Source: Streptomyces violaceoruber
GTDB taxonomy: Bacteria > Actinomycetota > Actinomycetes > Streptomycetales > Streptomycetaceae
NCBI GenBank assembly: GCA_000720805.1
Contig: JODI01000005.1
Coordinates: 1-64,000, forward strand
Direction: 5' to 3'
Length of the DNA: 64,000 nucleotides
The notes beneath the pieces were generated by a model that ran no database searches, had not been told where the DNA came from, and saw nothing but the letters and a program-made list of their open reading frames with translations. Below are positions 3,596 to 37,391 of this stretch, piece after piece. The position numbers and the translations under genes were made by a program. The number at the start of each line of letters is the position of its first letter. Position 1 is the stretch's first letter.

Positions 3596-4324
3596 TTACG
3601 CGGGCTGCTGAGCGGCGGCGATGCGTTCGTTGCGGAGCGCCTCGTACCAGCGGTCGTCGGTCGGCGGCAGCGCGTTCACGTCGAGCGCCAGCTTCAGCAG
3701 CAGGTCCGCGATGAGCGGGTTGCGCGCGAGGACGGGGCCGTGCATGTACGTACCGAAGACCGTGTCGTTGTACGCCCCCTCGGTGCCGTCGCCGGTCCCG
3801 TTGCCGTTGCCGAGGCGGACCTGGGCGAACGGGCGGGCGGTGGGGCCGAGGTGGGTGACGCCCTGGTGGTTCTCGAAGCCGGTCAGCGGGGGCAGGCCCA
3901 GGCGGGGGTCGATGTCGCCGAGCACGTCACCGACGCACCGCTCGCCCTCGCCGCGCACCGAGACTACGTCGAGCAGGCCGAGGCCGGGCTCGCGCTGGCC
4001 GAGGTCGTTGATGAACTCGTGGCCGAGGATCTGGTAGCCGGCGCAGACCGAGAAGACGATCGCGCCGTTCTCCACGGCCCGGTGCAGACCGCCGTCGCGG
4101 CGCAGCCGCTCGGCGGCGAGCCGCTGCGGCCGGTCCTCGCCACCGCCGATCAGGTAGATGTCGCCGGAGGTCGGGATCGGCTGGTCGCTGCGCACGTCGA
4201 GGCGGGCCACGTCGAGGCGGCGCTGCCGGGCCCGCCGCTCCACGACGAGGGCGTTGCCCTGGTCGCCGTAGGTGCTGAGCAGGTCGGGGTAGATCCAGAC
4301 GATCCGCAGCTGGTTGTCGCTCAC
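3596..4324 (-). CDS. gatD: Lipid II isoglutaminyl synthase, glutamine amidotransferase subunit GatD
   Basis: Class I glutaminase partner of MurT. It releases ammonia that MurT uses to amidate the D-Glu of lipid II stem peptides. The 242 residues carry the nucleophile in VFSVCAGYQ (Cys94) and the partner His in ENHQG (His153), the two catalytic positions known for the staphylococcal enzyme. The start is GTG with AGGGGAC upstream, only 18 nt after the murT stop, so the two are co-transcribed. Peptidoglycan amidation is standard in actinobacteria; nothing unusual is seen. Confidence 0.94.
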   Translation of the reverse strand: MSDNQLRIVWIYPDLLSTYGDQGNALVVERRARQRRLDVARLDVRSDQPIPTSGDIYLIGGGEDRPQRLAAERLRRDGGLHRAVENGAIVFSVCAGYQILGHEFINDLGQREPGLGLLDVVSVRGEGERCVGDVLGDIDPRLGLPPLTGFENHQGVTHLGPTARPFAQVRLGNGNGTGDGTEGAYNDTVFGTYMHGPVLARNPLIADLLLKLALDVNALPPTDDRWYEALRNERIAAAQQPA

Positions 4325-24727: not shown

Positions 24728-25690
24728 ATGAGTGGACGCGTCTTCCACCGGGCCCTGGTCACCGGCGGAGCCGGATTCGTGGGATCGCATCTGTGCGGGC
24801 GACTGCTCGCCGCGGGTGCCGACGTCGTGTGCCTCGACAACCTGGCCACCGGCTCCCGCGCCAACGTGGCGGACCTGCAGCGCCACGACGGTTTCCGCTT
24901 CGTGCGGGCCGACGCCACCGATCCCGCGGCCTGGCGCGCGCTGCCGGGCCGTTTCGACCTGGTCCTGCACTTCGCCTGCCCGGCCTCGCCCGCCGACTAT
25001 CTGCGGCTGCCGCTGGAGACCCTCGCCGTCGGCAGCGACGGCACCCGGCACGCGCTGGACCGCACCCGCCGCGACGAGGCCCGTTTCGTGCTCGCCTCCA
25101 CCTCCGAGGTGTACGGCGACCCGCTGGAGCATCCGCAGCCGGAGACGTACTGGGGGAACGTCAATCCGGTCGGCCCCCGCAGCGTCTACGACGAGTCCAA
25201 GCGCTTCGCCGAGGCCCTGGTGACCGCCCACCGGGGTGTGCACGGCACCGACGCGGCCATCGTCCGGATCTTCAACACCTACGGTCCGCGCATGCGCGGC
25301 GGCGACGGCCGCGCCGTGCCCACGTTCATCGCCCAGGCCCTCGACGGCGCGCCCCTGACCGTCGCCGGTGACGGTGGCCAGACACGTTCGCTGTGCTACG
25401 TCGACGACACGGTCGACGGCATCCTCGCCCTGGCGGCGTCCGACGAGGCGGGGCCCGTGAACATCGGCGGTGCCGACGAGATCACGATGCTCGAACTCGC
25501 CCGCTGCATCGTCGACCTCACCGGCTCCGCCTCCCGGATCCGCTTCGTCGAACGCCCGGTCGACGACCCGGGGCGCCGCAAGCCCGACACCCGCCTCGCG
25601 CGGGAGCGGCTCGGCTGGCGTCCGGAGGTCGACTGGGACGAGGGCCTCGCCCGTACGATCGACTGGTTCACCCGCTCCGCGGCCGCCTGA
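24728..25690 (+). CDS. NAD-dependent epimerase/dehydratase, UDP-glucuronate decarboxylase-like
   Basis: Extended short-chain dehydrogenase of 320 residues acting on a nucleotide sugar. VTGGAGFVGSHL binds NAD. TSEVYGDP carries the active-site Ser/Thr equivalent. The YDESKRFAEAL segment holds the catalytic Tyr and Lys. HPQPETYWGNVNPVGPRS is the pattern I associate with UXS (UDP-xylose synthase) enzymes. It opens the sugar cluster on the same strand but is separated from the next gene by a hairpin and 315 bp. UDP-pentose supply is the leading guess; a heptose-modifying 4,6-dehydratase is the alternative. Confidence 0.88.
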   Translation: MSGRVFHRALVTGGAGFVGSHLCGRLLAAGADVVCLDNLATGSRANVADLQRHDGFRFVRADATDPAAWRALPGRFDLVLHFACPASPADYLRLPLETLAVGSDGTRHALDRTRRDEARFVLASTSEVYGDPLEHPQPETYWGNVNPVGPRSVYDESKRFAEALVTAHRGVHGTDAAIVRIFNTYGPRMRGGDGRAVPTFIAQALDGAPLTVAGDGGQTRSLCYVDDTVDGILALAASDEAGPVNIGGADEITMLELARCIVDLTGSASRIRFVERPVDDPGRRKPDTRLARERLGWRPEVDWDEGLARTIDWFTRSAAA

Positions 25691-26005
25691 CCCGGGCCGC
25701 CGGCCCACCTCCGCCCCACCGGGCACCCCGCCGAGGGCGCCCGGTGCCCCACTGGCACGCCTCGGCTCCCACCTGCGGAGGAGTCGGGCGCTGCCGGGCG
25801 TTCCCGCGCATTCTTCGGCGCCGATACTCAGCCTTCCGGTGCGGCGCCGACTGTCGCGACTCTGCGTGGTCGATTTACAGCGAACCGTGAAAAATCGGGC
25901 TATTTCATGGCGAGCTATCTCCAAGTGTTTGAGGCAACCCCAAGAGCGGCACTCGCGGACCTGTAGCAAAAGTCCCCATTTGTCACAGGGACGGAGCGAT
26001 TCAAC
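25691..26005 (+). promoter_or_regulatory. Intergenic control region before the carbamoyltransferase operon
   Basis: No convincing gene in these 315 bp. From about 25860 base composition becomes markedly AT-richer than the surroundings, as expected for a promoter region. It contains an inverted repeat CGATTT/AAATCG (25871-25897) and a direct repeat GCTAT (25899-25903 and 25914-25918, 15 bp apart). The ribosome site before the 26006 ATG is GGACGGAG. No confident -35/-10 pair was identified. Confidence 0.45.
25718..25745 (+). terminator. Hairpin terminator after the epimerase gene
   Basis: ACCGGGCACCC pairs with GGGCGCCCGGT (one mismatch) across a 6-nt loop, 28 bp after the epimerase stop. No T tract. 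Confidence 0.65.
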
Positions 26006-27643
26006 ATGCGCATCCTCGGCATCAACGCCCTGTTCCACGACCCGGCCGCCGCTCTCGTCGTCGACGGCCACACCGTCGCCGCCGCCGAAGAGGAGCGTTT
26101 CAGCCGCCGCAAGCACGGCAAGCGCCCGGTGCCGTTCTCCGCCTGGGAGCTGCCCGAGCTGTCCGCCCGCTGGTGCCTGGAGCATGCCGGGATCCGGCCC
26201 GGGGAACTGGACGCGGTGACCTACTCCTTCGACCCCAGGCTCGCCCGCCCCGCCCAGGACATGGGACTGAACGACCCTTTTGACCCGCTGCGCCTGGACT
26301 ACGCGCGCCGCGCCCCCGAGTTCCTCGCCGAGGCCCTGCCCGGCCTCGACCCGGACCAGGTGGTCTTCGTCCCGCACCACGTGGCACACGCCGCCTCCGC
26401 CGGACCCGCCTCCCCGCACCCCGACAGCGCCGTCCTCGTCCTCGACGGCCGCGGCGAGGCCGCCTCCCACCTGGCCGGCCGCTACCGCGACGGCAAGCTC
26501 GACATCCTGGCCGCACAAGCGCTGCCCCACTCCCTGGGCCTGGTCTACGAGGAGCTCACCGAACACCTCGGCTTTCTGCGCAGCAGCGACGAGTACAAGG
26601 TGATGGCCCTCGCCTCCTACGGCGAACCCCGCTTCCTGCCCCGGCTGCGGCAGCACGTCCACCCGACCGGCGACGGCGGCTTCAGCGCCCACGGCGTCGA
26701 CTGGGCCGCCCTCGCCCCGCCCCGCGCGAAGGGCGAGACGTGGACGCGGGAGCACGCCGACCTCGCCGCCAGCACCCAGGCGGTCCTCGAAGACCTCCTG
26801 CTCGAACTCGTCCACTGGCTGCACCGCGAGGCCGGGGGAGAGGCGCTCACCATGGCGGGCGGCGTCGCCCTCAACTGCGTCGCCAACTCCAGGATCGCCG
26901 AACAGGGCCCCTACCGGCACGTGTGGGTGCAGCCGGCCGCCGGGGACGCCGGAACCGCCCTCGGAGGCGCCCTCCACCTGTCCGCACAGCAGCAGGAGAA
27001 CCCGCTGCCCATGCCCGGCGCCGACCTCGGCCGTGGCTGGAGCGACGAGGAGTTGCTGGCCTGGCTCGACCAGGCCGCCGTACCGTACGAGCGCCCCGAC
27101 GACATCGCGGAGGCGGTCGCCGAGGAGCTGGCCCGCGACGGCGTGGTCGCCTGGTTCCAGGGCCGCAGCGAGTACGGGCCGCGCGCCCTCGGACACCGCT
27201 CCCTGTTGGCCCATCCCGGCCGCGCCGAGAACCTGGAACGGCTCAACCACGTCAAGGGCCGTGAGGAGTTCCGGCCGGTCGCGCCCATGGTCCTCGCCGA
27301 CCGCGCCCACGAGCTGTTCACGGGGCCACTGCCCAGCCCGTACATGCTCTTCGTGCACGACGTGGCACATCGGTGGCGCGGGCGCATCCCCGCCGTGGTG
27401 CACGTGGACGGCACCGCCCGCATCCAGACCGTCGACGAGCGGCAGGAGCCGCTGGTGGCGCGGATGCTGCGCGGCTTCGAACGGCGCACCGGACTGCCGG
27501 TGGTCGTCAACACCAGTCTCAACACCGCCGGCCGCCCCATGGTCGACGACCCCCGCGACGCCCTGGAGTGCTTCGGCTCCGCGCCCGTGGACCTGCTGGC
27601 TATCGGTCCGTTCGCGGTGCGGCGGGGAAGGGCGTTCGCATGA
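26006..27643 (+). CDS. Carbamoyltransferase (NodU/CmcH family)
   Basis: Transfers a carbamoyl group from carbamoyl phosphate, via carbamoyl-AMP, to a hydroxyl of a sugar or natural product. The 545 residues comprise an N-terminal Kae1-like domain (MRILGINALFHDPAA, then PHHVAHAASA with the metal-binding HxxxH, and GGVALNCVANSRI) and a C-terminal YrdC-like domain (EYGPRALGHRSLLAHP, then FRPVAPMVL and VNTSLNTAGRPMVDDP). First gene of a long overlapping operon of glycosyltransferases, so a carbamoylated glycan is inferred. The stop overlaps the next start as ATGA. Confidence 0.94.
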   Translation: MRILGINALFHDPAAALVVDGHTVAAAEEERFSRRKHGKRPVPFSAWELPELSARWCLEHAGIRPGELDAVTYSFDPRLARPAQDMGLNDPFDPLRLDYARRAPEFLAEALPGLDPDQVVFVPHHVAHAASAGPASPHPDSAVLVLDGRGEAASHLAGRYRDGKLDILAAQALPHSLGLVYEELTEHLGFLRSSDEYKVMALASYGEPRFLPRLRQHVHPTGDGGFSAHGVDWAALAPPRAKGETWTREHADLAASTQAVLEDLLLELVHWLHREAGGEALTMAGGVALNCVANSRIAEQGPYRHVWVQPAAGDAGTALGGALHLSAQQQENPLPMPGADLGRGWSDEELLAWLDQAAVPYERPDDIAEAVAEELARDGVVAWFQGRSEYGPRALGHRSLLAHPGRAENLERLNHVKGREEFRPVAPMVLADRAHELFTGPLPSPYMLFVHDVAHRWRGRIPAVVHVDGTARIQTVDERQEPLVARMLRGFERRTGLPVVVNTSLNTAGRPMVDDPRDALECFGSAPVDLLAIGPFAVRRGRAFA

Positions 27644-28647
27644 GCCCGGGGTACGCGGTCGTGATACCGACGCTGGTCCGCGCCACCCTCGCCGACTGTC
27701 TCGCCGCGCTCGCCGCCGCCGACGGACCGAAGCCGGACGAGATCGTCCTCGTCGACGACCGGCCCGAACCCGACCCCGCTCCCGGTCCGCTGGAGCACCC
27801 GCTGAGTGTGCTCGGTGACCTGCGGGGGCGTACGACCGTGGTGGCGGGCGGGGGGCGCGGGCCCGCCACCGCCCGCAACACCGGCTGGCACCGCGTCGCC
27901 GCGCCCTGGGTGGCCTTCCTCGACGACGACGTCCAGGTGGGCCCGCACTGGTGCGAGCAGCTGGCGCAGGACCTGACCGACGCGACCCCGGACACCGGAG
28001 GCGTCCAGGGGGTGATCGCCGTACCGCTGCCGGGCGAGCGCCACCCCACCGACTGGGAACGGGGCACCGCCGCTCTGGCGCGGGCCCGCTGGATCACCGC
28101 CGACATGGCGTACCGCACGGACACGCTCAAGCAGGTCGGCGGCTTCGACGAACGCTTCCGGCGCGCCTTCCGCGAGGACGCCGACATCGCCCTGCGGATC
28201 CTGGACGCGGGATGGCGGATCCGGCGAGGTCGGCGCACCACCCGGCACCCCGTGCGCCCCGCCGACCGCTGGGTGTCCCTGCGCGCCCAGCGCGGCAACG
28301 CCGACGACGCCCTGATGCGATACCTGCACGGGCCGGGCTGGTGGCACAAGGCCGCCGCGCCGCGCGGGCGCCTGCACGGCCACCTGGCGGTCACCGCGGC
28401 CGGTGCCGCCGCGTGCGCCCTCGCGGTCGCCGGACGCCGCCGGGCCGCCGTGGCCGCGGCGTTCGGCTGGGCCGCCGGTACCGCGGAGTTCGCGTGGGCG
28501 CGCATCGCGCCGGGGCCACGCACCCGCGACGAGGTGACGACGATGCTCGTCACCAGCGCGCTCATCCCGCCCGCCGCGACCTGGCACTGGCTGAGCGGCC
28601 TCCGGCGGCACCGGAACGCCCCCGACTGGCGGGAGGTGGCGCGATGA
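27640..28647 (+). CDS. Glycosyltransferase family 2
   Basis: Inverting GT-A glycosyltransferase of 335 residues. The N-terminal nucleotide-sugar domain has YAVVIPTLVRATL, IVLVDDRPEPDP and VAFLDDDVQVGP (DxD-type metal site). GGFDERFRRAFREDADIALRI carries the usual acidic catalytic region. Residues about 240-300 form two hydrophobic stretches that suggest membrane association. Coupled by ATGA at both ends. The transferred sugar is unknown; the neighbouring heptose genes make a heptose donor plausible. Confidence 0.9.
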   Translation: MSPGYAVVIPTLVRATLADCLAALAAADGPKPDEIVLVDDRPEPDPAPGPLEHPLSVLGDLRGRTTVVAGGGRGPATARNTGWHRVAAPWVAFLDDDVQVGPHWCEQLAQDLTDATPDTGGVQGVIAVPLPGERHPTDWERGTAALARARWITADMAYRTDTLKQVGGFDERFRRAFREDADIALRILDAGWRIRRGRRTTRHPVRPADRWVSLRAQRGNADDALMRYLHGPGWWHKAAAPRGRLHGHLAVTAAGAAACALAVAGRRRAAVAAAFGWAAGTAEFAWARIAPGPRTRDEVTTMLVTSALIPPAATWHWLSGLRRHRNAPDWREVAR

Positions 28648-29222
28648 GTCCCGTCAAGGCCGTGCTGTTCGACCGTGACGGCACCCTCGTCCACGACGTC
28701 CCCTACAACGGCGACCCGGCCCGCGTCCGCCCCGTCGACGGAGCCCGCGAGGCATTGGACCTGCTCCGCTCGCGCGGCATCCGTACCGGAGTCGTCAGCA
28801 ACCAGTCCGGCATCGCGCGCGGACTGCTCACCGACGCCGACGTGCGCGGCGTCAACCACCGCGTCGACGAGCTTCTCGGCCCCTTCGACGTGTGGGCCGT
28901 GTGCCCGCACGGCCCCGACGACGGCTGCTCCTGCCGCAAACCGGAACCGGGCCTGGTCCTGTGGGCGGCCGGCCGCCTGCGCACCGCACCCGCCGACTGT
29001 GTCGTCATCGGCGACATCGGAGCCGACGTCGAGGCAGCGCGCCGGGCGGGCGCCCACGGCATCCTCGTGCCCACCCCGCGGACGCGACCGCAGGAGACGG
29101 CGAGTGCGGAGCATGTGGCGCCGGACCTGCCGACCGCCGTACGCGACGTGCTGACCGGGCCGCCGGCCCGGAGCGCCCCGACCGCCGAAGCCGCCTACGA
29201 CACCAGCGGGAGACCACGATGA
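28644..29222 (+). CDS. HAD-IIIA phosphatase, GmhB-like (heptose bisphosphate phosphatase)
   Basis: Phosphatase of 192 residues. FDRDGTL near residue 10 is HAD motif I with nucleophile and acid Asp. VVSNQSGIARG is motif II. The CPHGPDDGCSCRKP cysteine/histidine cluster binds zinc in GmhB enzymes. VIGDIGADVEAARRAG is motif IV. GmhB removes the C7 phosphate from heptose 1,7-bisphosphate before nucleotidyl transfer. Together with the GmhA- and HldE-like genes downstream this makes a near-complete ADP-heptose route. Overlaps both neighbours. Confidence 0.9.
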   Translation: MSPVKAVLFDRDGTLVHDVPYNGDPARVRPVDGAREALDLLRSRGIRTGVVSNQSGIARGLLTDADVRGVNHRVDELLGPFDVWAVCPHGPDDGCSCRKPEPGLVLWAAGRLRTAPADCVVIGDIGADVEAARRAGAHGILVPTPRTRPQETASAEHVAPDLPTAVRDVLTGPPARSAPTAEAAYDTSGRPR

Positions 29223-30208
29223 AAGCCCTCGTCACCCGCCTCGACAGCTTCGGTGACGTCCTGCTCGCCGGGCCCGCCGTCCGCGCCGTCGCCGCCCGCG
29301 CCGACACCGTCACGATGCTGGTCGGACCGCGGGGCGCGCCCGCCGCCCGCCTGCTGCCCGACGTGGACGACATCCTCGTCTGGGACGCCCCCTGGGTCGG
29401 CCTCGACCCTCCGCACGTCGGCCGCGGAGAAGTCGAGCTGCTCATCGACACCATCGACGCCGACACGGCCCTGATCCTGACCTCCTTCCATCAGTCCCCG
29501 CTGCCCACCGCCCTGTTGCTGCGCCTGGCCGGCGTCGGCCACATCGCCGCGGACAGCGAGGACTACCCCGGATCCCTCCTCGACGTACGCCATCACCGCG
29601 CACCGCACGCCCATGAAGCGGAGGCCGCGCTCGATCTCGCCGAGGCCGCGGGATTCCCCCGGGTGGACGACGGGCGGCTGCGGGTGCTGCCCCCGCCCGC
29701 CGCGACCGGGGCGACCGGTCCCGGACCGTACGTCGTCCTGCACCCCGGCGCCAGCGTCCCCGCCCGCGCCTGGAGCCGCGAGCGCTGCGCCGAAGCAGTG
29801 CGGGAACTGGCCGGGGCCGGGCACCGGGTCGTGGTGACCGGCGGGCCGGACGAGCGGGACCTGACCGCGTACGTCGCCGGCGAGCAGGCCCTCGACCTCG
29901 GCGGCCGGACCGGTGCCGGGGAACTGGCCGGCGTGCTCGCCGGGGCCGACGCCGTCGTCACCGGCAACACCGGGCCCGCCCACCTCGCCGCCGCCGTCGG
30001 CACCCCGGTCGTCTCGCTCTTCGCGCCCGTCGTCCCCGCCGAACGCTGGCGACCGTACGGCGTGCCGTACGTGCTGCTCGGCGACCAGCTGGCGCCCTGT
30101 GCCGACACCAGGGCCCGGACGTGTCCCGTGCCCGGCCATCCGTGCCTGGAGTCGGTGACCGGGCACGACGTCGCGGCCGCCGTCGAGAAGCTGATGGGGG
30201 AGACATGA
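29219..30208 (+). CDS. Glycosyltransferase family 9 (heptosyltransferase-like)
   Basis: GT-B fold enzyme of 329 residues related to ADP-heptose:LPS heptosyltransferases. LVTRLDSFGDVLLAGPAVRA is the N-terminal acceptor-side motif. VVLHPGASVPARAW and GNTGPAHLAAAVGTPVVSLF form the donor-binding C-domain. Streptomyces has no LPS, so an ADP-heptose-like donor passes its sugar to some other acceptor. A second GT9 gene lies about 4.3 kb further on in the same operon. ATG overlaps the preceding stop. Confidence 0.92.
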   Translation: MKALVTRLDSFGDVLLAGPAVRAVAARADTVTMLVGPRGAPAARLLPDVDDILVWDAPWVGLDPPHVGRGEVELLIDTIDADTALILTSFHQSPLPTALLLRLAGVGHIAADSEDYPGSLLDVRHHRAPHAHEAEAALDLAEAAGFPRVDDGRLRVLPPPAATGATGPGPYVVLHPGASVPARAWSRERCAEAVRELAGAGHRVVVTGGPDERDLTAYVAGEQALDLGGRTGAGELAGVLAGADAVVTGNTGPAHLAAAVGTPVVSLFAPVVPAERWRPYGVPYVLLGDQLAPCADTRARTCPVPGHPCLESVTGHDVAAAVEKLMGET

Positions 30209-31155
30209 GGATCCTGCTCTGGCACGTACACGGGTCGTGGACCACGGCCTTCGTGCAGGGCCCGCACACCTACGTCGTCCCCGTCACCCCGGACCGCGGA
30301 CCCGACGGCCTCGGCCGGGCCCGCACCTTCGACTGGCCCGACTCCGTCGTCGAGATCCCGCCCGAGCGGCTGCGGGACGAGGACATCGACGTCGTCGTCC
30401 TGCAACGCCCGCACGAACTCGCCCTCGTGGACGCGTGGCTGGGCCGCCGCCCACCCCTGGTGTACCTGGAGCACAACGCCCCGGACGGCGACGTCCCCCA
30501 CACCCGCCACCCGGCCGCCGACCTCCCCGGCGTCACCCTCGTCCACGTCACCCACTTCAACCGGCTGATGTGGGACGCCGGAAACACCCCCGCGGTCGTC
30601 ATCGAGCACGGCATCGTCGACCCCGGCCGGCTGTGGACCGGTGAGCTGCCCCGGGCCGCCGTCGTCGTCAACGAGCCCGTGCGGCGCGGCCGTACGGTGG
30701 GCACCGACCTGCTGCCGGCGTTCGCGCGGACCGCCCCGCTGGACGTGTTCGGCATGCGGACCGAAGGGCTCGCCGGCCACCTCGGTGTCCCGGAGGAGAG
30801 CTGCCGCTCCCACGAACTCGTCCAGCGTGACCTGCATGCCGCGATGGCGCGGCGCCGCCTCTACCTCCACCCCGTCCGCTGGACCTCCCTGGGCCTGTCC
30901 CTGCTGGAGGCGATGCACCTCGGCATGCCGGTGGTGGCCCTCGCCACCACCGAGGTGACCGAGGCGGTACCGCCGGGCGCCGGAGTGGTCTCCCACCGCA
31001 TCGACGTACTGCAAGACGCCGTACGGGACTTCCTCGCCGACCCGCCGCACGCCCGCTCCGTCGGAGAGGGCGCTCGCGCCGCCGCGCTCGCCCGCTACGG
31101 ACTGACCCGCTTCCTGGACGACTGGGAGCGGCTGCTGAAGGAGGTGGCCCGATGA
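30205..31155 (+). CDS. Glycosyltransferase (GT4-like, short)
   Basis: A 316-residue GT-B type protein. The N-terminal half has MRILLWHVHGSW, VVVLQRPHELALVD and THFNRLMW. The C-terminal half has the GT4-style donor region LYLHPVRWTSLGLSLLEAMH and GMPVVALATTE, where the family's E-x7-E acidic motif is only partly kept. Shorter than ordinary GT4 enzymes. Coupled by ATGA on both sides within the sugar operon. Donor and acceptor unknown. Confidence 0.82.
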   Translation: MRILLWHVHGSWTTAFVQGPHTYVVPVTPDRGPDGLGRARTFDWPDSVVEIPPERLRDEDIDVVVLQRPHELALVDAWLGRRPPLVYLEHNAPDGDVPHTRHPAADLPGVTLVHVTHFNRLMWDAGNTPAVVIEHGIVDPGRLWTGELPRAAVVVNEPVRRGRTVGTDLLPAFARTAPLDVFGMRTEGLAGHLGVPEESCRSHELVQRDLHAAMARRRLYLHPVRWTSLGLSLLEAMHLGMPVVALATTEVTEAVPPGAGVVSHRIDVLQDAVRDFLADPPHARSVGEGARAAALARYGLTRFLDDWERLLKEVAR

Positions 31156-32369
31156 GGATCGCCATGGTGTCCGAGCACGCCAGCCCCCTGGCGGCGCTCG
31201 GCGGCGTCGACGCCGGTGGCCAGAACGTGTACGTGGCCCGGCTCAGCGAGGAGCTGGCGCGCCGCGGCCACGACGTCACCGTCCACACCCGGCGCGACTC
31301 CACCGAGTTGCCCGACCGCGTGGCCCTGCCCGGCGGCGCCGTCGTGGAGCACGTGCCGGCCGGACCGCCCGTACCGGTCCCCAAGGACGAGCTGTTGCCG
31401 TACATGCCGGCCTTCGGCGCGTACCTCGCCCGGGTCTGGGAGGACGAGCCGCCTCGGGCCGTGCACGCCCACTTCTGGATGTCGGGACTGGCCGCCCGTA
31501 CCGGCGCCGGGCCCCACGACATCCCCGTCGTGCAGACCTTCCACGCCCTCGGCACCGTCAAGCGACGCCACCAGGGCCACGAGGACACCAGTCCCGCCGA
31601 ACGCGTGGGCATCGAGCGGCAGCTCGGCCGCGGCTGTGCCCGGGTGCTGGCCACCTGCACCGACGAGGTGCTCGAACTCGCCGACATGGGCGTGCCGCCC
31701 CGACGGGTGTCCGTGGTGCCGTGCGGGGTGGACGTACGCCACTTCCGTCCCGGAGCGCGGGCCGCCGACATCCCGGCACGCCGGGAGCGGCACCGGCTGC
31801 TGGCCTGCGGACGGCTCGTCCGCCGCAAGGGCTACGACCAGGCCATCCGCGCCCTCACTCGGATACCCGACACCGAACTCGTCGTGGCCGGCGGGCCCCC
31901 GCCCGAACTGCTGGGCGCCGAACCGGAGGCCCGACGGCTGCTGGCCCTGGCCGACCGGCACGGCGTCGCCGACCGGGTACGGCTGCTCGGTGCCGTGGAC
32001 CCGGCCCGGATGCCGGCGCTCATCGGCAGCGCGGACGCGGTGCTGTGCACCCCGACGTACGAGCCGTTCGGCATCGTCCCGCTGGAGGCCATGGCCTGCG
32101 GTGTGCCCGTCGTCGCCACCGATGTCGGCGGCCACCGGGACACCGTCTCCGACGGGGTGACGGGCCGGCTGGTACCGGCGGCCGACCCCGGGGCGATCGC
32201 TGAGGCGGTCCGCGACGTACTCGCCGACGAACGGCTGCGCCGCACCATGGGCGCGATCGGCCGGGACCGCGCGCTCGCCCGCTACACCTGGCAGCGCGTC
32301 GCGGACGGCGTCGAAGAGGTCTACCAACGCGTCACGGCACGTGACGAGATTCCGTCGGAGGTGGCGTGA
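31152..32369 (+). CDS. Glycosyltransferase family 4
   Basis: Retaining GT-B glycosyltransferase of 405 residues. ALGGVDAGGQNVYVARLSEEL is the N-terminal glycine-rich acceptor-side loop shared with sucrose-phosphate-synthase-like GT4 enzymes. HAHFWMSG and VVPCGVDVRHFRP follow. The C-domain has RLVRRKGYDQAI and TYEPFGIVPLEAMACGVPVV, with the E-x7-E pair for nucleotide-sugar binding. Sits between the shorter GT4 and the GmhA-like gene with 1-4 nt overlaps. Confidence 0.93.
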   Translation: MRIAMVSEHASPLAALGGVDAGGQNVYVARLSEELARRGHDVTVHTRRDSTELPDRVALPGGAVVEHVPAGPPVPVPKDELLPYMPAFGAYLARVWEDEPPRAVHAHFWMSGLAARTGAGPHDIPVVQTFHALGTVKRRHQGHEDTSPAERVGIERQLGRGCARVLATCTDEVLELADMGVPPRRVSVVPCGVDVRHFRPGARAADIPARRERHRLLACGRLVRRKGYDQAIRALTRIPDTELVVAGGPPPELLGAEPEARRLLALADRHGVADRVRLLGAVDPARMPALIGSADAVLCTPTYEPFGIVPLEAMACGVPVVATDVGGHRDTVSDGVTGRLVPAADPGAIAEAVRDVLADERLRRTMGAIGRDRALARYTWQRVADGVEEVYQRVTARDEIPSEVA

Positions 32370-32953
32370 TGAGCACAGAGGTATCCCGGGGTGTCGGGCA
32401 CTGCGACGAACTCCTCGACGCCCTCGGGGCGTTCCGGGCCTCCGCCCACATCACCGAGCGGTGGGGCCACAAGCTCGCCGCCGTGCTCGGGGGCGGCGGT
32501 CGGCTGCTCGCGGCGGGCAACGGCGGCAGCGCGGCCCAGGCCCAGCACCTGACGGCCGAACTCGTTGGCCGCTACCGCGACGACCGGCCCGCCTTCTCGG
32601 CGATCGCCCTGCACGCGGACACCTCCAGCACGACCGCCATCGCCAACGACTACGGCGTCGACGCGGTGTTCGCCCGCCAGGTACGCGCTCACGGCCGCCG
32701 CGGCGACGTGCTGATGCTGCTGTCCACCAGCGGCGCCAGCGCCAACCTGCTGTCGGCCGCCGACGCGGCGCGCGCGGCGGGCCTGCACGTGTGGGCGCTG
32801 ACCGGAGCGGCTCCGAACCCGCTGCTGGCCGGCAGTGACGAGGCCCTGTGCGTGAACGCCGGTTCGGCCGCGACCGTGCAGGAACTCCACCTGGTGGCCG
32901 TGCACATGGTGTGCGCGGCGTTCGACGCGGCCCTGGCCGGGAAGGGGAGCTGA
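32369..32953 (+). CDS. gmhA: SIS-domain phosphoheptose isomerase, GmhA-like
   Basis: Converts sedoheptulose 7-phosphate to D-glycero-D-manno-heptose 7-phosphate, the first committed heptose step. The 194 residues match GmhA length. GGRLLAAGNGGSAAQAQHLTAEL is the substrate-binding SIS loop region with Asn-Gly-Gly-Ser. LSTSGASANLL binds the phosphate. QELHLVAVHMVCAAFD supplies the C-terminal catalytic Glu/His region. I chose ATG at 32369 (1-nt overlap with the previous stop, TGATG); an in-frame GTG 3 nt earlier is equally possible. Immediately followed by the HldE-like gene. Confidence 0.9.
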   Translation: MSTEVSRGVGHCDELLDALGAFRASAHITERWGHKLAAVLGGGGRLLAAGNGGSAAQAQHLTAELVGRYRDDRPAFSAIALHADTSSTTAIANDYGVDAVFARQVRAHGRRGDVLMLLSTSGASANLLSAADAARAAGLHVWALTGAAPNPLLAGSDEALCVNAGSAATVQELHLVAVHMVCAAFDAALAGKGS

Positions 32954-32954
32954 C

Positions 32955-34316
32955 GTGCCCGGCAAGGCCCCCCTCGTCGTGGTCGGCGACGCCCTTCTGG
33001 ACCGTGACCTGACCGGCACCGCCGAGCGCCTCGCCCCCGACGCGCCCGTGCCCGTCGTCGCCGACTGCGCGCAGCGGACGCGTCCGGGAGGCGCCGCCCT
33101 CACCGCGTACCTCGCGGCACGCGACGGCCGCGAGGTCACCCTGATCACTGGAGTCGGCGACGATTCTGCGAGCGAGGAACTGCGTCAACTCCTCGCTCCC
33201 GAACTGAAGTTGATCGAGCTCCCGCTGACCGGCGCGCTGCCGGAGAAGACCCGCGTCCTGGCCCGGGGCAGCCCGGTGGTCCGTCTGGACCGGGGCACCG
33301 GGCGCGTCCGCGAGGCCACGGAGGAGGCCCGCGAGGCGCTCCGCTCGGCCTCCGCCGTGCTGGTCTCCGACTACGGGCGGGGCGCGGCGGACTCCCTGCG
33401 GGACGCTCTCGCCGAGCGGCCACCGCTGGTCTGGGACCCGCACCCGCGCGGCGGGCCGCCCGTGCCGGGCACCCGGCTGGTCTCCCCGGCCCGGTCGGAG
33501 GCGCGTACGTTCGCCGACCAGGAGGGCAACGGGAACCCCCTGCGGGACGCCGCCCGGGACGCCGCCGCACTGGTGAGGCAGTGGCGGGTCGCCGCCGTCG
33601 CGGTGACCCTCGGTGCGAGCGGGGCCCTGCTGTCGTACGGGGAGCACCCGCTGCTCGTCCCGGCGGGAGCCGTGCATCCCGGGGACACCTGCGGCGCCGG
33701 GGACCGTTTCGCCGCGACGGCGGCCGGACTGCTGGCCGACGGGGCCCTGGTCGGTGAGGCCGTCGAGGGTGCCGTGGCCGCGGCGACCGAGTTCGTCGGC
33801 GCCGGCGGGGCAGGGGGCGTCACGCACGCCGACAGCGGGCCGGGGCCCCTCACCGACTCCGCCGACGCCCGCGACCTGGTCGCGCGCGTCCGTGCCACCG
33901 GCGGCACCGTCGTCGCCGCGGGCGGCTGCTTCGACCTGCTGCACGCCGGGCACGTCGGACTGCTCCAGGCCGCCCGGCGGCTCGGCGACTGCCTGGTCGT
34001 CTGCGTCAACTCGGACGCGTCGGTGCGGCGGCGCAAGGGCCCGGAGCGGCCGGTGAACCCGTTGGCCGACCGCACCCGGGTGCTCAACGCCCTCGCCTGC
34101 GTCGACGCCGTCGCCGTGTTCGACGAGGACACCCCCGAACGGCTGCTGGCCGACCTGCGCCCGGACATCTGGGTGAAGGGCGGCGACTACTCCGGCGCCG
34201 ACCTGCCCGAGGCCGCCCTGCTCCAGGAGTGGGGCGGACAGGCGGTCCTGCTCCCGTACCTCGACGGCCGCTCCTCGACCGCGCTGATGGCACGGGTGAG
34301 GGAAGGAGCCCGATGA
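32955..34316 (+). CDS. hldE: HldE-like bifunctional heptose 7-phosphate kinase / heptose 1-phosphate adenylyltransferase
   Basis: Two fused enzymes in 453 residues. The PfkB-type kinase domain (1-300) has VVVGDALLDRDL at the start and GDTCGAGDRFAATAA with catalytic Asp near 249. The cytidylyltransferase-fold domain (about 315-453) has GGCFDLLHAGHVGLLQ with the HxGH pair at about 331-334, then RRRKGPERPVNPL. In Gram-negatives this fusion makes ADP-heptose for LPS; in a Gram-positive it must serve another glycoconjugate. GTG start with AGGGGAG upstream. The stop overlaps the ATG of a 51-codon ORF. Confidence 0.92.
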   Translation: MPGKAPLVVVGDALLDRDLTGTAERLAPDAPVPVVADCAQRTRPGGAALTAYLAARDGREVTLITGVGDDSASEELRQLLAPELKLIELPLTGALPEKTRVLARGSPVVRLDRGTGRVREATEEAREALRSASAVLVSDYGRGAADSLRDALAERPPLVWDPHPRGGPPVPGTRLVSPARSEARTFADQEGNGNPLRDAARDAAALVRQWRVAAVAVTLGASGALLSYGEHPLLVPAGAVHPGDTCGAGDRFAATAAGLLADGALVGEAVEGAVAAATEFVGAGGAGGVTHADSGPGPLTDSADARDLVARVRATGGTVVAAGGCFDLLHAGHVGLLQAARRLGDCLVVCVNSDASVRRRKGPERPVNPLADRTRVLNALACVDAVAVFDEDTPERLLADLRPDIWVKGGDYSGADLPEAALLQEWGGQAVLLPYLDGRSSTALMARVREGAR

Positions 34317-34586
34317 CGACGCGTCCCCGTTTGCCGGTCCCGCGTGCTGCGTGCCTGGGCGATCTCCTCGCCGGGGTCTCGGCGCCGAGCGCACCGCGTG
34401 TGGGTTTTCCCGGCCACGAGCTGGTGCCGGCCCTTTCGGTGGCGCGAGTGAGGGAGGAAGTGCGATGAGCGCGTGCCCTCGTCTGCTGGTCCTGCGTGCC
34501 CTGGGCCTGGGCGACCTCCTCGCCGGCGTCCCCGCCCTGCGCGCGCTGCGCCGGGGCTTCCCGGACCACGAACTGGTGCTGGCCGC
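34289..34586 (+). repeat. Diverged 152-bp tandem duplication across the hldE / GT9 junction
   Basis: Unit 1 (34289-34434) and unit 2 (34441-34586) align at a constant 152-bp offset. Each contains the end of a frame reading ARVRE...R-stop, an ATGA junction, then the first about 40 codons of a GT9 gene. Similarity is clear but imperfect, so the event is not recent. Confidence 0.8.
34313..34468 (+). pseudogene. 51-codon remnant duplicated from the N-terminus of the next GT9 gene
   Basis: The encoded peptide has PRLPVPRAACLGDLLAGVSA and GFPGHELV, aligning with PRLLVLRALGLGDLLAGVPA and GFPDHELV of the following GT9 protein, then ends in VARVREEVR, which echoes the hldE C-terminus (MARVREGAR). It starts in an ATGA overlap with hldE and stops in an ATGA overlap with the GT9 gene, so translational coupling through the operon is preserved. 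Without the rest of the fold it cannot be a transferase. Either a duplication scar or a tolerated leader-like ORF. Confidence 0.65.
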
Positions 34587-35418
34587 CCCGGAGGAACTCG
34601 CCCCGGCGGCCGCGGCCATGGGAGCGGCCGACCGGCTGCTGCCCGCCTCCGCTCCCGGCCGGGCCGTACCGCGCCGCCTCGACTGGACCGGCCCGCCACC
34701 AGACGTCGCCGTCGACCTGCACGGCAACGGCCCGCCCAGCCACCGGCTTCTGCAGTCCCTGCGGCCGGGCCGGCTCCTGGCCTTCGCGCACCCCGACACA
34801 CCCGGCATCGGCGGACCGCTCTGGTACGCCGAGGAACACGAACGGGACCGCTGGTGCCGGTTCCTCCAGGCGTACGGCATCCCCGCCGACGCGACCGACC
34901 TGCGGCTGCCCCGCCCGGCGGACCCGTCCCCGGCGCCCGGCGCGATCGTCCTGCACCCCGGCGCCGGAGCGCCCTCGCGCTGCTGGCCCGTCGACCGGTA
35001 CGCCACCGTGGCCACCGCCCTGCGCGAGCGCGGCCACCGGGTCGTGGTCACCGGAGGAGCGGACGAGGAGGACCTGGTGGCGCGGCTGGCCAAGGAGGCC
35101 CGGCTGCCCGACACCGACGTGTTCGGCGGCGGACTGCCCTTCGGACGGCTCTCCGCCCTCGTCGTCGACGCCCGCGCCGTCGTCAGCGGCGACACCGGCA
35201 TCGCCCACCTCGCCGTCGCCCACGCCGCCCCCTCCGTCACCCTCTTCGGCCCGGTACCGCCCAGCCGTTGGGGCCCGCCCGCGCACCCGCGCCACCAGGT
35301 GCTGTGGCACCCGGGCCCGGACGGCGACCCGCACGGCCGCCGCACCGACCCGGTCCTGCTGCGGATCCGCCCCGAAGACGTCCTGGAAGCCTTCGACCGG
35401 CTCATCGACTCGCCATGA
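34465..35418 (+). CDS. Glycosyltransferase family 9 (second heptosyltransferase-like)
   Basis: GT-B enzyme of 317 residues. The N-terminal LVLRALGLGDLLAGVPALRAL is the GT9 acceptor-domain start. AIVLHPGAGAPSRCWPVDRYA and SGDTGIAHLAVAHAAPSVTLFGP form the donor-binding half. It is related to but distinct from the GT9 encoded at 29219. ATG overlaps the stop of the 51-codon ORF. Two GT9 enzymes suggest at least two heptose (or related) residues in the product. Confidence 0.92.
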   Translation: MSACPRLLVLRALGLGDLLAGVPALRALRRGFPDHELVLAAPEELAPAAAAMGAADRLLPASAPGRAVPRRLDWTGPPPDVAVDLHGNGPPSHRLLQSLRPGRLLAFAHPDTPGIGGPLWYAEEHERDRWCRFLQAYGIPADATDLRLPRPADPSPAPGAIVLHPGAGAPSRCWPVDRYATVATALRERGHRVVVTGGADEEDLVARLAKEARLPDTDVFGGGLPFGRLSALVVDARAVVSGDTGIAHLAVAHAAPSVTLFGPVPPSRWGPPAHPRHQVLWHPGPDGDPHGRRTDPVLLRIRPEDVLEAFDRLIDSP

Positions 35419-36307
35419 CCCACGCATCCGTCGGCGTCGTCATCGCCACCCGCGACCGCGAGCCCTCGCTCGCCCGTACCCTCGGCCGCCTCCTCGACCT
35501 CCCCGAGCGGCCGCCCGTCGTCGTCGACAACGCCTCCACCCACGGCACCGCCGACGCCGTCACCCGGCACCACCCCGCGGTGCCGGTGCTGCGACCCGGC
35601 CACAACCTCGGCGCGGTCGGCCGCAACTGGCCATGCGCCATGTGCACACGCCCTACGTGGCCTTCTGCGACGACGACTCCTCGTGGGCGCCCGGCTCGCT
35701 GCCGGGGGCCGCCGACCTGCTCGACCGGCACCCCGCGCTGGGCGCCGTCACGGCACGCATCGTCGTCGAACCGGACGGCACCGAGGGCCCGATCGTCACC
35801 GAACTGCGCAACTCACCTTCGCCCCGGCCGAGTTGGCTGCCCGGCCCGGCCCTCGGTTCCTTCCTGGCCGCGGCGACGGTCCTGCGGTCCGGCGCCTTGC
35901 GCGCCGCGGGCGGCTTCCACCCCCGGCTGTGGCTCGGCGGAGAGGAGGAGCTGCTCGCCGCGGACCTCGCGGGCGACGGCTGGTGGCTGACGTACGCCGA
36001 TCACCTGACGGCCCATCACCGAGCGTCGGTGGTCAGGGAAGCCACCCCGCGTCGGGCCCACGGCATCCGCAACACGCTGTGGTTCACCTGGCTGCGCCGC
36101 CCGGTCGGCCGCGCCCTGCGCCGCACCGTGCACCTGGCCCGCACCGTGCCGCGCGACACCGTGTCCCTGCGTGCCTTCGCCGAGGCCACCGCCGCGCTGC
36201 CGTGGGTGCTGCGCGAGCGACGGGTGCTGCCGAGCGAGGTCGAGTCCCGGCTGCGGCTGCTGGAGGATCCCCAACGCCGGTCCACCACACGCCGCTACAC
36301 GGGCTGA
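35415..36307 (+). pseudogene. Family 2 glycosyltransferase with a single-base frameshift
   Basis: The ATG overlaps the GT9 stop. The first 71 codons read as a GT2 N-terminus (VGVVIATRDREPSLARTL, VVVDNASTHGTADAV, HNLGAVGRN). At about 35629-35632 the frame moves by one base; the remainder (MRHVHTPYVAFCDDDSSWAP, GGFHPRLWLGGEEELLAADL) continues as a normal GT2 to 36307. Adding one G at the TGGCC site would give an uninterrupted protein of about 297 residues. Either a genuine loss of function or a sequencing error; sequence alone cannot say. Confidence 0.82.
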
Positions 36308-36779: not shown

Positions 36780-37391
36780 CTAACGGGTGGAGTGCGGGGC
36801 GAGGGCCTGGAGGAGACCGTCCGCGCCGTCCGACGCGGCATCCTGGCGGATCCGGGCACCGATGTCCCGGGCGAGTTCGCGGCCGGCGGTCCCGCACCAG
36901 TCCCACCAGTGATCAGGCGCCGACGCGTCGAGCCGTTCGGAGACCCTGCAGCGCGGGCCGGCCGCAGGCGCGCGCCTGCGCCGTCACCTTCGAGCCGCCC
37001 TCGACCGGGTCGACGGCCACCGCCGGAACCCCCGCCCGCGGGGCGAACACCATTCCGTGCAGCCGGTCGGTGACGACCGGGCCGAGCCGGGAGAGCACGG
37101 CCTCCGACTGGGCGGGGGTCGCGCTCAGCCGCCAGTCGTGCACGTCGAGCCGGGTCTCCAGTTCCAGGCGCGCGCAGTCCCGGCCGGACAGCCGGCGCGT
37201 CACCTCGTCGGCGCCCCGCTCGTGCCGTCGGCGCGTTCCGCACTCGCGCCGGCCGTGGGTGAGGATCACCCCGACGACAGGCCGGGAGGCAGGGGCGGGG
37301 GCCGGTGCAGCGCCAGCACGTCCCCGGCGGTCGCCTCCCCGTCCAGGAAACTGAACCAGCCCGTCAGCAGGATCCGCGGTCGCTCCGGCAC
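36780..37391 (-). pseudogene. Polysaccharide pyruvyl transferase family remnant
   Basis: Pieces of one protein lie in order on the minus strand. RILLTGWFSFLDGEATAGDV starts from GTG at 37391. After about 26 codons the reading jumps, by internal deletion, to VVGVILTHGRRECGTRRRH, LELETRLDVHDWRLSATPAQ and VVTDRLHGMVFAPRAGVPAV. Near 36950 a further frame change leads to RLDASAPDHWWDWCGTAGRE and a stop at 36780. VVTDRLHGM is the signature of this transferase family. The intact enzyme would probably exceed 250 residues. Its position at the end of the glycan cluster suggests a lost pyruvyl or related decoration. Confidence 0.72.

Follow-up and report, generated by a model that had tools for sequence, protein, structure and literature searches.

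A predicted heptose, xylose and carbamoyl envelope glycan operon of Streptomyces violaceoruber as the probable counterpart of the S. coelicolor cwg operon

In Gram-negative bacteria the ADP-heptose of lipopolysaccharide (LPS) is provided by four proteins, GmhA, HldE, GmhB and HldD; Streptomyces has no LPS. The heptose of the Aneurinibacillus thermoaerophilus S-layer is made by a GDP-alpha route, and the bleomycin sugar genes blmC-blmG form a nucleotidyltransferase, carbamoyltransferase, glycosyltransferase and epimerase set. The closest described system for the locus studied here is the operon cwgA-L (SCO6179-6190) of Streptomyces coelicolor, reportedly described by Hong et al. in 2002. This operon is induced by vancomycin and was among the first two known targets of sigma-E, the Streptomyces cell-envelope stress sigma factor (PMC6767563). 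The operon is absent from a list of 21 sigma-E promoters that 9 or more of 19 species share (PMC6767563, 2019), and no product of the operon is stated in the excerpts of the open-licence literature searched. We analyzed a stretch of 64,000 nucleotides (nt) from S. violaceoruber (contig JODI01000005.1 of assembly GCA_000720805.1, positions 1 to 64,000; hereafter the window; 72.6% GC), which belongs to a draft genome (10.5 Mb, 350 contigs). Positions 24728 to 36307 hold an operon that, judged by gene order, published gene names and promoter, is the orthologue of cwg, and we consider it probable that this cwg orthologue builds an envelope glycan carrying heptose, xylose and carbamoyl groups.

Using Pfam and NCBIfam models, the following set was recognised on the plus strand: a UXS-type protein (UDP-glucuronate decarboxylase/UDP-xylose synthase) of the short-chain dehydrogenase/reductase (SDR) family (cwgA-type, 24728-25690), an O-carbamoyltransferase of the NodU/CmcH/TobZ family (cwgB-type, 26006-27643), a family 2 glycosyltransferase (GT2a, cwgC-type, 27640-28647; PF00535, with no sequence match in the Protein Data Bank, PDB), a GmhB-like phosphatase of the haloacid dehalogenase (HAD) type (cwgD-type, 28644-29222), a GT9 enzyme of the heptosyltransferase family (GT9a, cwgE-type, 29219-30208), a GT4-like enzyme (GT4a, cwgF-type, 30205-31155; PF00534), a second GT4 enzyme that is MshA-like (GT4b, cwgG-type, 31152-32369; PF00534 and PF13439, with TIGR03449 at 236.7 bits and thus under its cut-off of 462.5), the sedoheptulose-7-phosphate isomerase GmhA (cwgH-type, 32369-32953), HldE, a predicted heptose-7-phosphate kinase and heptose-1-phosphate nucleotidyltransferase (cwgI-type, 32955-34316), a further GT9 (GT9b, cwgJ-type, 34465-35418) and a last GT2 gene (35415-36307), which is broken. 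From GT2a through HldE neighbouring genes overlap or are a few nt apart, and the gap of about 150 nt between HldE and GT9b would be shorter with an earlier GT9b start codon. The gene set is far above chance, as the best Pfam E-values of the ten intact genes range from 5e-11 (GT4a) to 3e-64 (carbamoyltransferase) and the order was invariant in all 64 long named loci described below. A sequence-only reading of this DNA had listed eleven genes; the ten intact ones were correctly named, and the eleventh, a second GT2 ending at 36307, turned out to be a frameshifted chimera. Its claim that GmhA, HldE and GmhB share one operon with GT9 enzymes and a NodU/CmcH-type carbamoyltransferase was supported by Pfam, NCBIfam, motifs and folds, but its proposal of an undescribed system was not borne out, since gene order, gene names and the published promoter identify the known cwg operon.

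The order and orientation of cwgA to cwgJ were identical in 64 of 64 named Streptomyces loci of at least 19 kb, at 57-98% identity. These 64 were the ones long enough for the order count among 80 named loci, which are the best 80 of 405 confirmed and therefore skewed to close relatives; S. coelicoflavus (L039) and S. violaceorubidus (L041) are among the relatives compared. A twelve-gene pattern was seen in 54 of the 64, and the remaining 10 differ at the tail. The published names SCO6182 (cwgD) 'dehydratase', SCO6186 (cwgH) 'phosphoheptose isomerase' and SCO6187 (cwgI) 'bifunctional synthase/transferase' (PMC5839063) and SCO6183 (cwgE) 'putative heptosyl transferase' (PMC5882110) agree with the positions of the genes in our operon, the 'dehydratase' label being compatible because the HAD group of GmhB includes HisB-type phosphatases in NCBIfam. 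Upstream of the operon, on the opposite strand, lies in 24 loci a gene that clusters with polysaccharide deacetylase (Pfam was run on L038 only), and SCO6178, a putative deacetylase, is likewise found upstream on the opposite strand of cwg (PMC6767563, PMC13011467). The published S. coelicolor cwg promoter was matched at 21-28 of its 29 bases in 22 of 82 sequences (a set that includes the window and loci from further genomes), 148-238 bases upstream of the UXS gene, as compared to a maximum of 15-20 of 29 in shuffled sequences. The likeness to S. coelicolor thus covers gene number and order in relatives, positional names, promoter and upstream deacetylase-type gene, whereas the window differs in having no match to the sigma-E site and in having cwgK and cwgL as one broken chimera. 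Being a regulatory trait of S. coelicolor, the sigma-E promoter was not used to define a cwg operon.

As the sequence-only reading had proposed, the first steps of the pathway look like heptose synthesis: the motifs of GmhA, HldE and GmhB are conserved and the HldE model is nearest to HldA. The best solved relatives of GmhA were phosphoheptose isomerases (5i01, 132 bits), and counterparts of all four zinc ligands of the gonococcal enzyme (H61, E65, Q175 and H183; PMC5387315) were present, with the His/Glu motif in 90 of 90 sequences and the Gln..His motif in 87 of 90. For the AlphaFold2 model of HldE (mean predicted local distance difference test, pLDDT, 88.6; predicted template modelling score, pTM, 0.65), the seven best PDB matches were all Burkholderia HldA chains (E 1.8e-22 to 8.6e-21), as compared to 7.6e-17 for the best ribokinase, and its second domain matched HldC with 51% identity in the model comparison. 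The kinase segment reads RLAPDAPVPVV where HldA has RISPEAPVPVV, the HxGH-type motif was found in 91 of 91 and GAGDRF in 80 of 91 sequences, and the nucleotidyltransferase half scored over the NCBIfam equivalog cut-off (TIGR02199, 191.2 vs. 181.5). GmhB is a HAD-IIIA protein (HAD-SF-IIIA over cut-off; PDB 4pnh) with the motifs DRDGT, present in 84 of 85 sequences, and CPHGPDDGCSCRKP, showing a CxH...CxC zinc motif, and its nearest relatives are D,D-heptose 1,7-bisphosphate phosphatases. A comparison of structures and active sites led to HldA first for HldE, with the GmhA zinc ligands and the GmhB motifs kept. The operon therefore shares with the Gram-negative LPS pathway three of its four proteins, together with their catalytic motifs, but differs from it in that no HldD passed the cut-off in 61 genomes and most scores were under equivalog cut-offs.

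The nucleotidyltransferase motif of the window is YLDGRSST. The published consensus is (F/L)XXGXSTT, and Arg at the fifth place has been linked to additional synthesis of CDP-/UDP-heptose (PMC11461863, a commentary on Tang et al.). Among our 91 sequences, 84 had a form recognised by the pattern and 79 had Arg at the fifth place. The idea of CDP-/UDP-heptose is a lead only, since YLDGRSST departs from the consensus at the first place and at one S/T position.

The UXS-like protein matched human UDP-glucuronate decarboxylase 1 (UXS1, 4gll) over its full length with 303.7 bits, as compared to 69 bits for the HldD model (cut-off 274.6). It carries STSEVYGDP and YxxxK motifs (SEVYGDP/YxxxK in 81 of 83 sequences) and is predicted to be of the UDP-xylose synthase type; on these scores it was rejected as a substitute for HldD, a role that the sequence-only reading had allowed for. 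That reading had also remarked that no HldD-type 6-epimerase was evident, in agreement with our finding that HldD exceeded the cut-off in none of 61 genomes of the genus, the strain's own included, although weaker SDR matches in all 61 leave room for a distant epimerase encoded elsewhere in the genome. With no HldD over cut-off, the D,D form, D-glycero-D-manno-heptose, is predicted, so that the sugars predicted from the genes are D-glycero-D-manno-heptose and xylose. The strain's own genome has six nucleotide-sugar dehydrogenase genes over cut-off, a family that includes UDP-glucuronate suppliers.

For the carbamoyltransferase both Pfam domains (Carbam_trans_N and _C) were over cut-off, and TobZ, GdmN, the novobiocin enzyme and 7xb6 (290 bits) were its solved relatives. 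Carbamoylation of heptose has a parallel in the Pseudomonas enzyme WapO, whose substrate heptose is the L-glycero form. WapO (PA5005) is the putative carbamoyltransferase for heptose of the LPS core, where Cm-(->7) and a carbamoyl on HepII are described, with a carbamoyl 13C signal near 159 ppm (PMC8005017); its target is the LPS core, which Streptomyces does not have. As a separate observation, genome G026 encodes besides its operon copy an extra full-length cwgB-like carbamoyltransferase with 76% identity (contig C19, 124591-126225).

Both GT9 proteins were over the PF01075 cut-off, and GT9b matched 3tov and 1psw in the PDB. A WaaC/WaaF-like fold was obtained from the AlphaFold2 model of GT9a only, with 3tov and WaaC/WaaF at a best E of 3.5e-16 and the protein heptosyltransferase TibC at 2.2e-07. 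We infer that GT9a and GT9b transfer heptose.

At the end of the operon, the same-species locus L033/L119 has two adjacent intact GT2 genes of 295 and 298 codons after GT9b. In the window, by comparison, the initial ~130 nt of cwgK run directly into the remaining part of cwgL, so that ~0.9 kb is absent, and the loss of a single base around 35630 places the start codon at 35415 and the end at 36307 in different frames. The window thus has no intact cwgK and cwgL pair; the tail varies between species, so the pair does not define a cwg operon. The ratio of nonsynonymous to synonymous polymorphism (pN/pS) between two strains of the species was 0.11-0.26 for the nine genes from UXS to HldE, 0.48 for GT9b and 0.64 in the in-frame remainder of the chimera. 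This pattern, albeit from small numbers and a draft assembly, fits better with real decay at the operon end than with an assembly slip. The broken last transferase and the sigma-E site that was not found mean that the product of this strain may be truncated or differently regulated.

The HldE nucleotidyltransferase domain was over cut-off in 100 of 295 Streptomyces genomes and in 59 of 296 genomes sampled across the class. In the 61 genomes of the genus, a cwgB orthologue (>870 bits) occurred in 21 of 23 genomes with HldE as compared to 0 of 38 without it (Fisher p 2e-14); genome G009, with both genes as fragments only, was scored as having neither. These G009 fragments of the cwg HldE and carbamoyltransferase genes (contig C1, ~96800-105600), one of them with a stop codon, suggest natural decay of the cwg operon in that species.

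Outside the genus, 17 fetched loci of other families carry the core GmhB, GT9a, GT4a, GT4b, GmhA and HldE. They came from 40 fetched regions, the others being 9 Streptomyces cwg operons and 14 regions with HldE-like genes in other settings, which were excluded from the module count. Eight of the 17 have UXS, carbamoyltransferase and GT2a, and nine have none of the three, even when the search was extended by 20 kb in both directions or as far as the contig reached. The carbamoyl/xylose genes of these 17 loci thus come as a complete module added to the heptose core or not at all, and this occurrence of the core outside the genus with or without the UXS-carbamoyltransferase-GT2 module is a new observation. 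In L131-L135, which have HldE-like matches, no other cwg gene was found within their 20 kb. In some loci of other actinobacterial families (L124, L129, L151-L155 and L161) an additional, less similar HldE lies about 4-14 kb away from the first one, often adjoining a further GT9; its identity was 36-39% in the three aligned, and an aldehyde dehydrogenase gene is adjacent in L161 and L129. A different cluster, in L128 (G051:C689) and L113, combines GmhA, HldE, a weak GmhB and a carbamoyltransferase relative with an HldD-like match directly beside HldE, which at 179 bits is under the cut-off of 274.6 and the best among the matches listed.

Convergent to the operon, on the minus strand (36783-37376), lies a polysaccharide pyruvyl-transferase-like gene in three fragments, a conserved neighbour in the genus. 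It is whole in L033 (14591-15484), where it is next after the GT2 pair, and was found in 61 of 91 Streptomyces loci (57 times on the strand opposite the operon), but not in the non-Streptomyces loci searched. Of 6 sequences tested, 4 were over cut-off for PF04230, the match spanning only the last ~38 of 280 model positions. The gene may decorate the same glycan. Its presence beside most Streptomyces copies is new, as are the missing sigma-E match and the GT2 chimera of this strain. In a crude hydropathy scan the operon enzymes look cytoplasmic, none having a clear membrane segment and five having one stretch just above threshold; a membrane glycosyltransferase or exporter inside the operon was rejected on this basis. 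Flanking sequences from related loci (10 + 20 + 5) were given to Pfam, which matched, each in a single locus, one major facilitator superfamily (MFS) gene, one ATP-binding cassette (ABC) permease and one MgtC gene, and other annotations were mixed. As the simple gene caller also gave antisense frames, a flank cluster was considered only if Pfam had confirmed one of its genes.

Between cwgA and cwgB lies a 315-nt spacer (25691-26005) that has 67% GC overall and 57% in its last 170 nt, as compared to 72.6% for the window, and spacers of relatives measure 36-468 nt (median 144, n=72). An internal promoter in this spacer may drive cwgB onward in this lineage. Rfam at gathering scores gave no family anywhere in the window. 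Elsewhere in the window, a MurT-type ligase gene (PF08353, 4343-5581) and the adjacent 3596-4324 are probably a lipid II amidation pair, and a single reading frame at 18481-20013 matches a phosphodiester glycosidase domain (NAGPA) together with DUF779, a combination that is unusual and may be an artefact of the chosen start site.

Operon identity, enzyme families, catalytic motifs and the lack of HldD over cut-off were read directly from sequence or structure, and from these we infer each reaction as well as the sugar order, the acceptor, the position of the carbamoyl group and export. After isomerisation by GmhA, the kinase half of HldE would make the 1,7-bisphosphate of the heptose, and the GmhB-type HAD protein would then remove the 7-phosphate. 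Without HldD the heptose would stay D,D, and the two GT9 enzymes would transfer it. UXS would convert UDP-glucuronate to UDP-xylose for one of the other transferases, and the carbamoyltransferase would add carbamoyl to a sugar hydroxyl. Their combined output would be a glycan of the envelope, which S. coelicolor would make when its cell wall is under stress. A wall or envelope location is favoured by the published regulation by vancomycin and sigma-E, through a promoter that was not found in this strain; the term 'cell wall glycan' derives from that regulation and the two polysaccharide-type neighbours, with nothing conclusive in this sequence.

Several observations weigh against a cwg operon that makes such a glycan. 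The cwg identity was drawn from gene order in other Streptomyces species and from the published S. coelicolor names and promoter. The region upstream of the operon in the window matched the published sigma-E site at 16 of 29 bases, which with a shuffled maximum of 17 is chance level, and S. cellulosae L033 reached only 14 of 29, also chance level. The strict sigma-E consensus was hardly enriched upstream (7 of 83 vs. 5.8 expected), and the promoter link comes from similarity to the published site. Scores under NCBIfam equivalog cut-offs were obtained for gmhA (157.6 vs. 209.45), GmhB (PRK08942, 106.1 vs. 178) and HldE (274.9 vs. 521), and likewise for the HldE kinase half and both GT9s. Some motifs were incomplete among relatives, to which truncated loci and strict patterns contribute: VKGGDY in 66 of 91, the carbamoyltransferase HxxxH-type motif in 72 of 83 and its EYGPRALG-type motif in 58 of 83, and the GNTG-type motif of GT9a in 53 of 87. 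In all 17 aligned GT9a sequences, the window included, Asn replaces the Asp of the WaaC DTG motif, a catalytic residue of WaaC. Finally, neither the operon nor the Pfam-scanned flanking sequences of relatives yielded a recognisable flippase, polymerase, ligase or lipid-carrier enzyme.

This last result would suit a different product, a small molecule for secretion or the sugar moiety of one. Antibiotic synthesis in Streptomyces does draw on NDP-heptose enzymes, for instance in the case of septacidin (PMC11461863), and the carbamoyltransferase family acts on antibiotics (TobZ, GdmN and the novobiocin enzyme). We regard this as unlikely. No gene of non-ribosomal peptide synthetase (NRPS) or polyketide synthase (PKS) type was present among the operon or annotated neighbour genes, and a bleomycin-, septacidin- or hygromycin-type cluster was rejected because no scaffold gene was found among these neighbours; with blmC-blmG of bleomycin, likened here by description only, the difference is the NRPS-type gene that the annotated neighbours lack. 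The gene order is moreover kept across many species and the core across other actinobacterial families, which is wider than most single-product clusters, and the vancomycin induction via sigma-E in S. coelicolor and the often adjacent pyruvyl-transferase-like and polysaccharide deacetylase genes point away from a small molecule. Attachment of the glycan to a membrane lipid or to proteins instead of a wall polymer is also rather improbable in our view. The cytoplasmic look of the enzymes and the match of the GT9a model to TibC would allow for it, but that match is much weaker than the one to 3tov and WaaC/WaaF (2.2e-07 vs. 3.5e-16), and no lipid-modifying gene was recognised nearby.

That GmhA, HldE and GmhB were recruited here to act on another sugar phosphate seems very unlikely. 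Scores under the equivalog cut-offs and the departure of YLDGRSST from (F/L)XXGXSTT speak for such a change, whereas the GmhA zinc ligands (PMC5387315) and the HldA-like RLAPDAPVPVV segment are kept, and HldA is the nearest fold match. A decaying operon that makes little or nothing in this strain could explain the broken GT2 chimera, the fragmented pyruvyl-transferase-like neighbour, the raised pN/pS of GT9b and the chimera remainder and the sigma-E site that was not found. It too appears rather improbable: pN/pS is 0.11-0.26 from UXS to HldE, S. cellulosae L033 has twelve intact genes and yet no match to the sigma-E site either, relatives differ at the tail (the twelve-gene pattern is lacking in 10 of 64 long loci), and for the chimera a draft-assembly error is possible.

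Taken together, our results favour a cwg orthologue that builds a heptose, xylose and carbamoyl envelope glycan. A wider proposal, tentative and in our estimate somewhat short of an even chance, is that Actinobacteria widely make a D-glycero-D-manno-heptose envelope glycan by a 6-epimerase-free HldE route, possibly with UDP- or CDP- as well as ADP-heptose, given the Arg at the fifth place of the STT-type motif. The core of GmhB, GT9a, GT4a, GT4b, GmhA, HldE and mostly GT9b would be decorated in some lineages by UXS, carbamoyltransferase and GT2, and in Streptomyces perhaps by pyruvylation, and the result would there be the cwg product. The S-layer glycan of A. thermoaerophilus is alike in placing D-glycero-D-manno-heptose in a Gram-positive envelope glycan (PMC5387315), but here the HldE (beta) route is predicted. 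NDP-heptoses are also sensed by the innate immune kinase ALPK1 (PMC11461863). The sharp prediction is that the envelope of induced S. coelicolor contains D-glycero-D-manno-heptose, xylose and O-carbamoyl groups, each of which is lost in single-gene deletions. If true, this would extend the list of heptose glycans described from Gram-positive bacteria.

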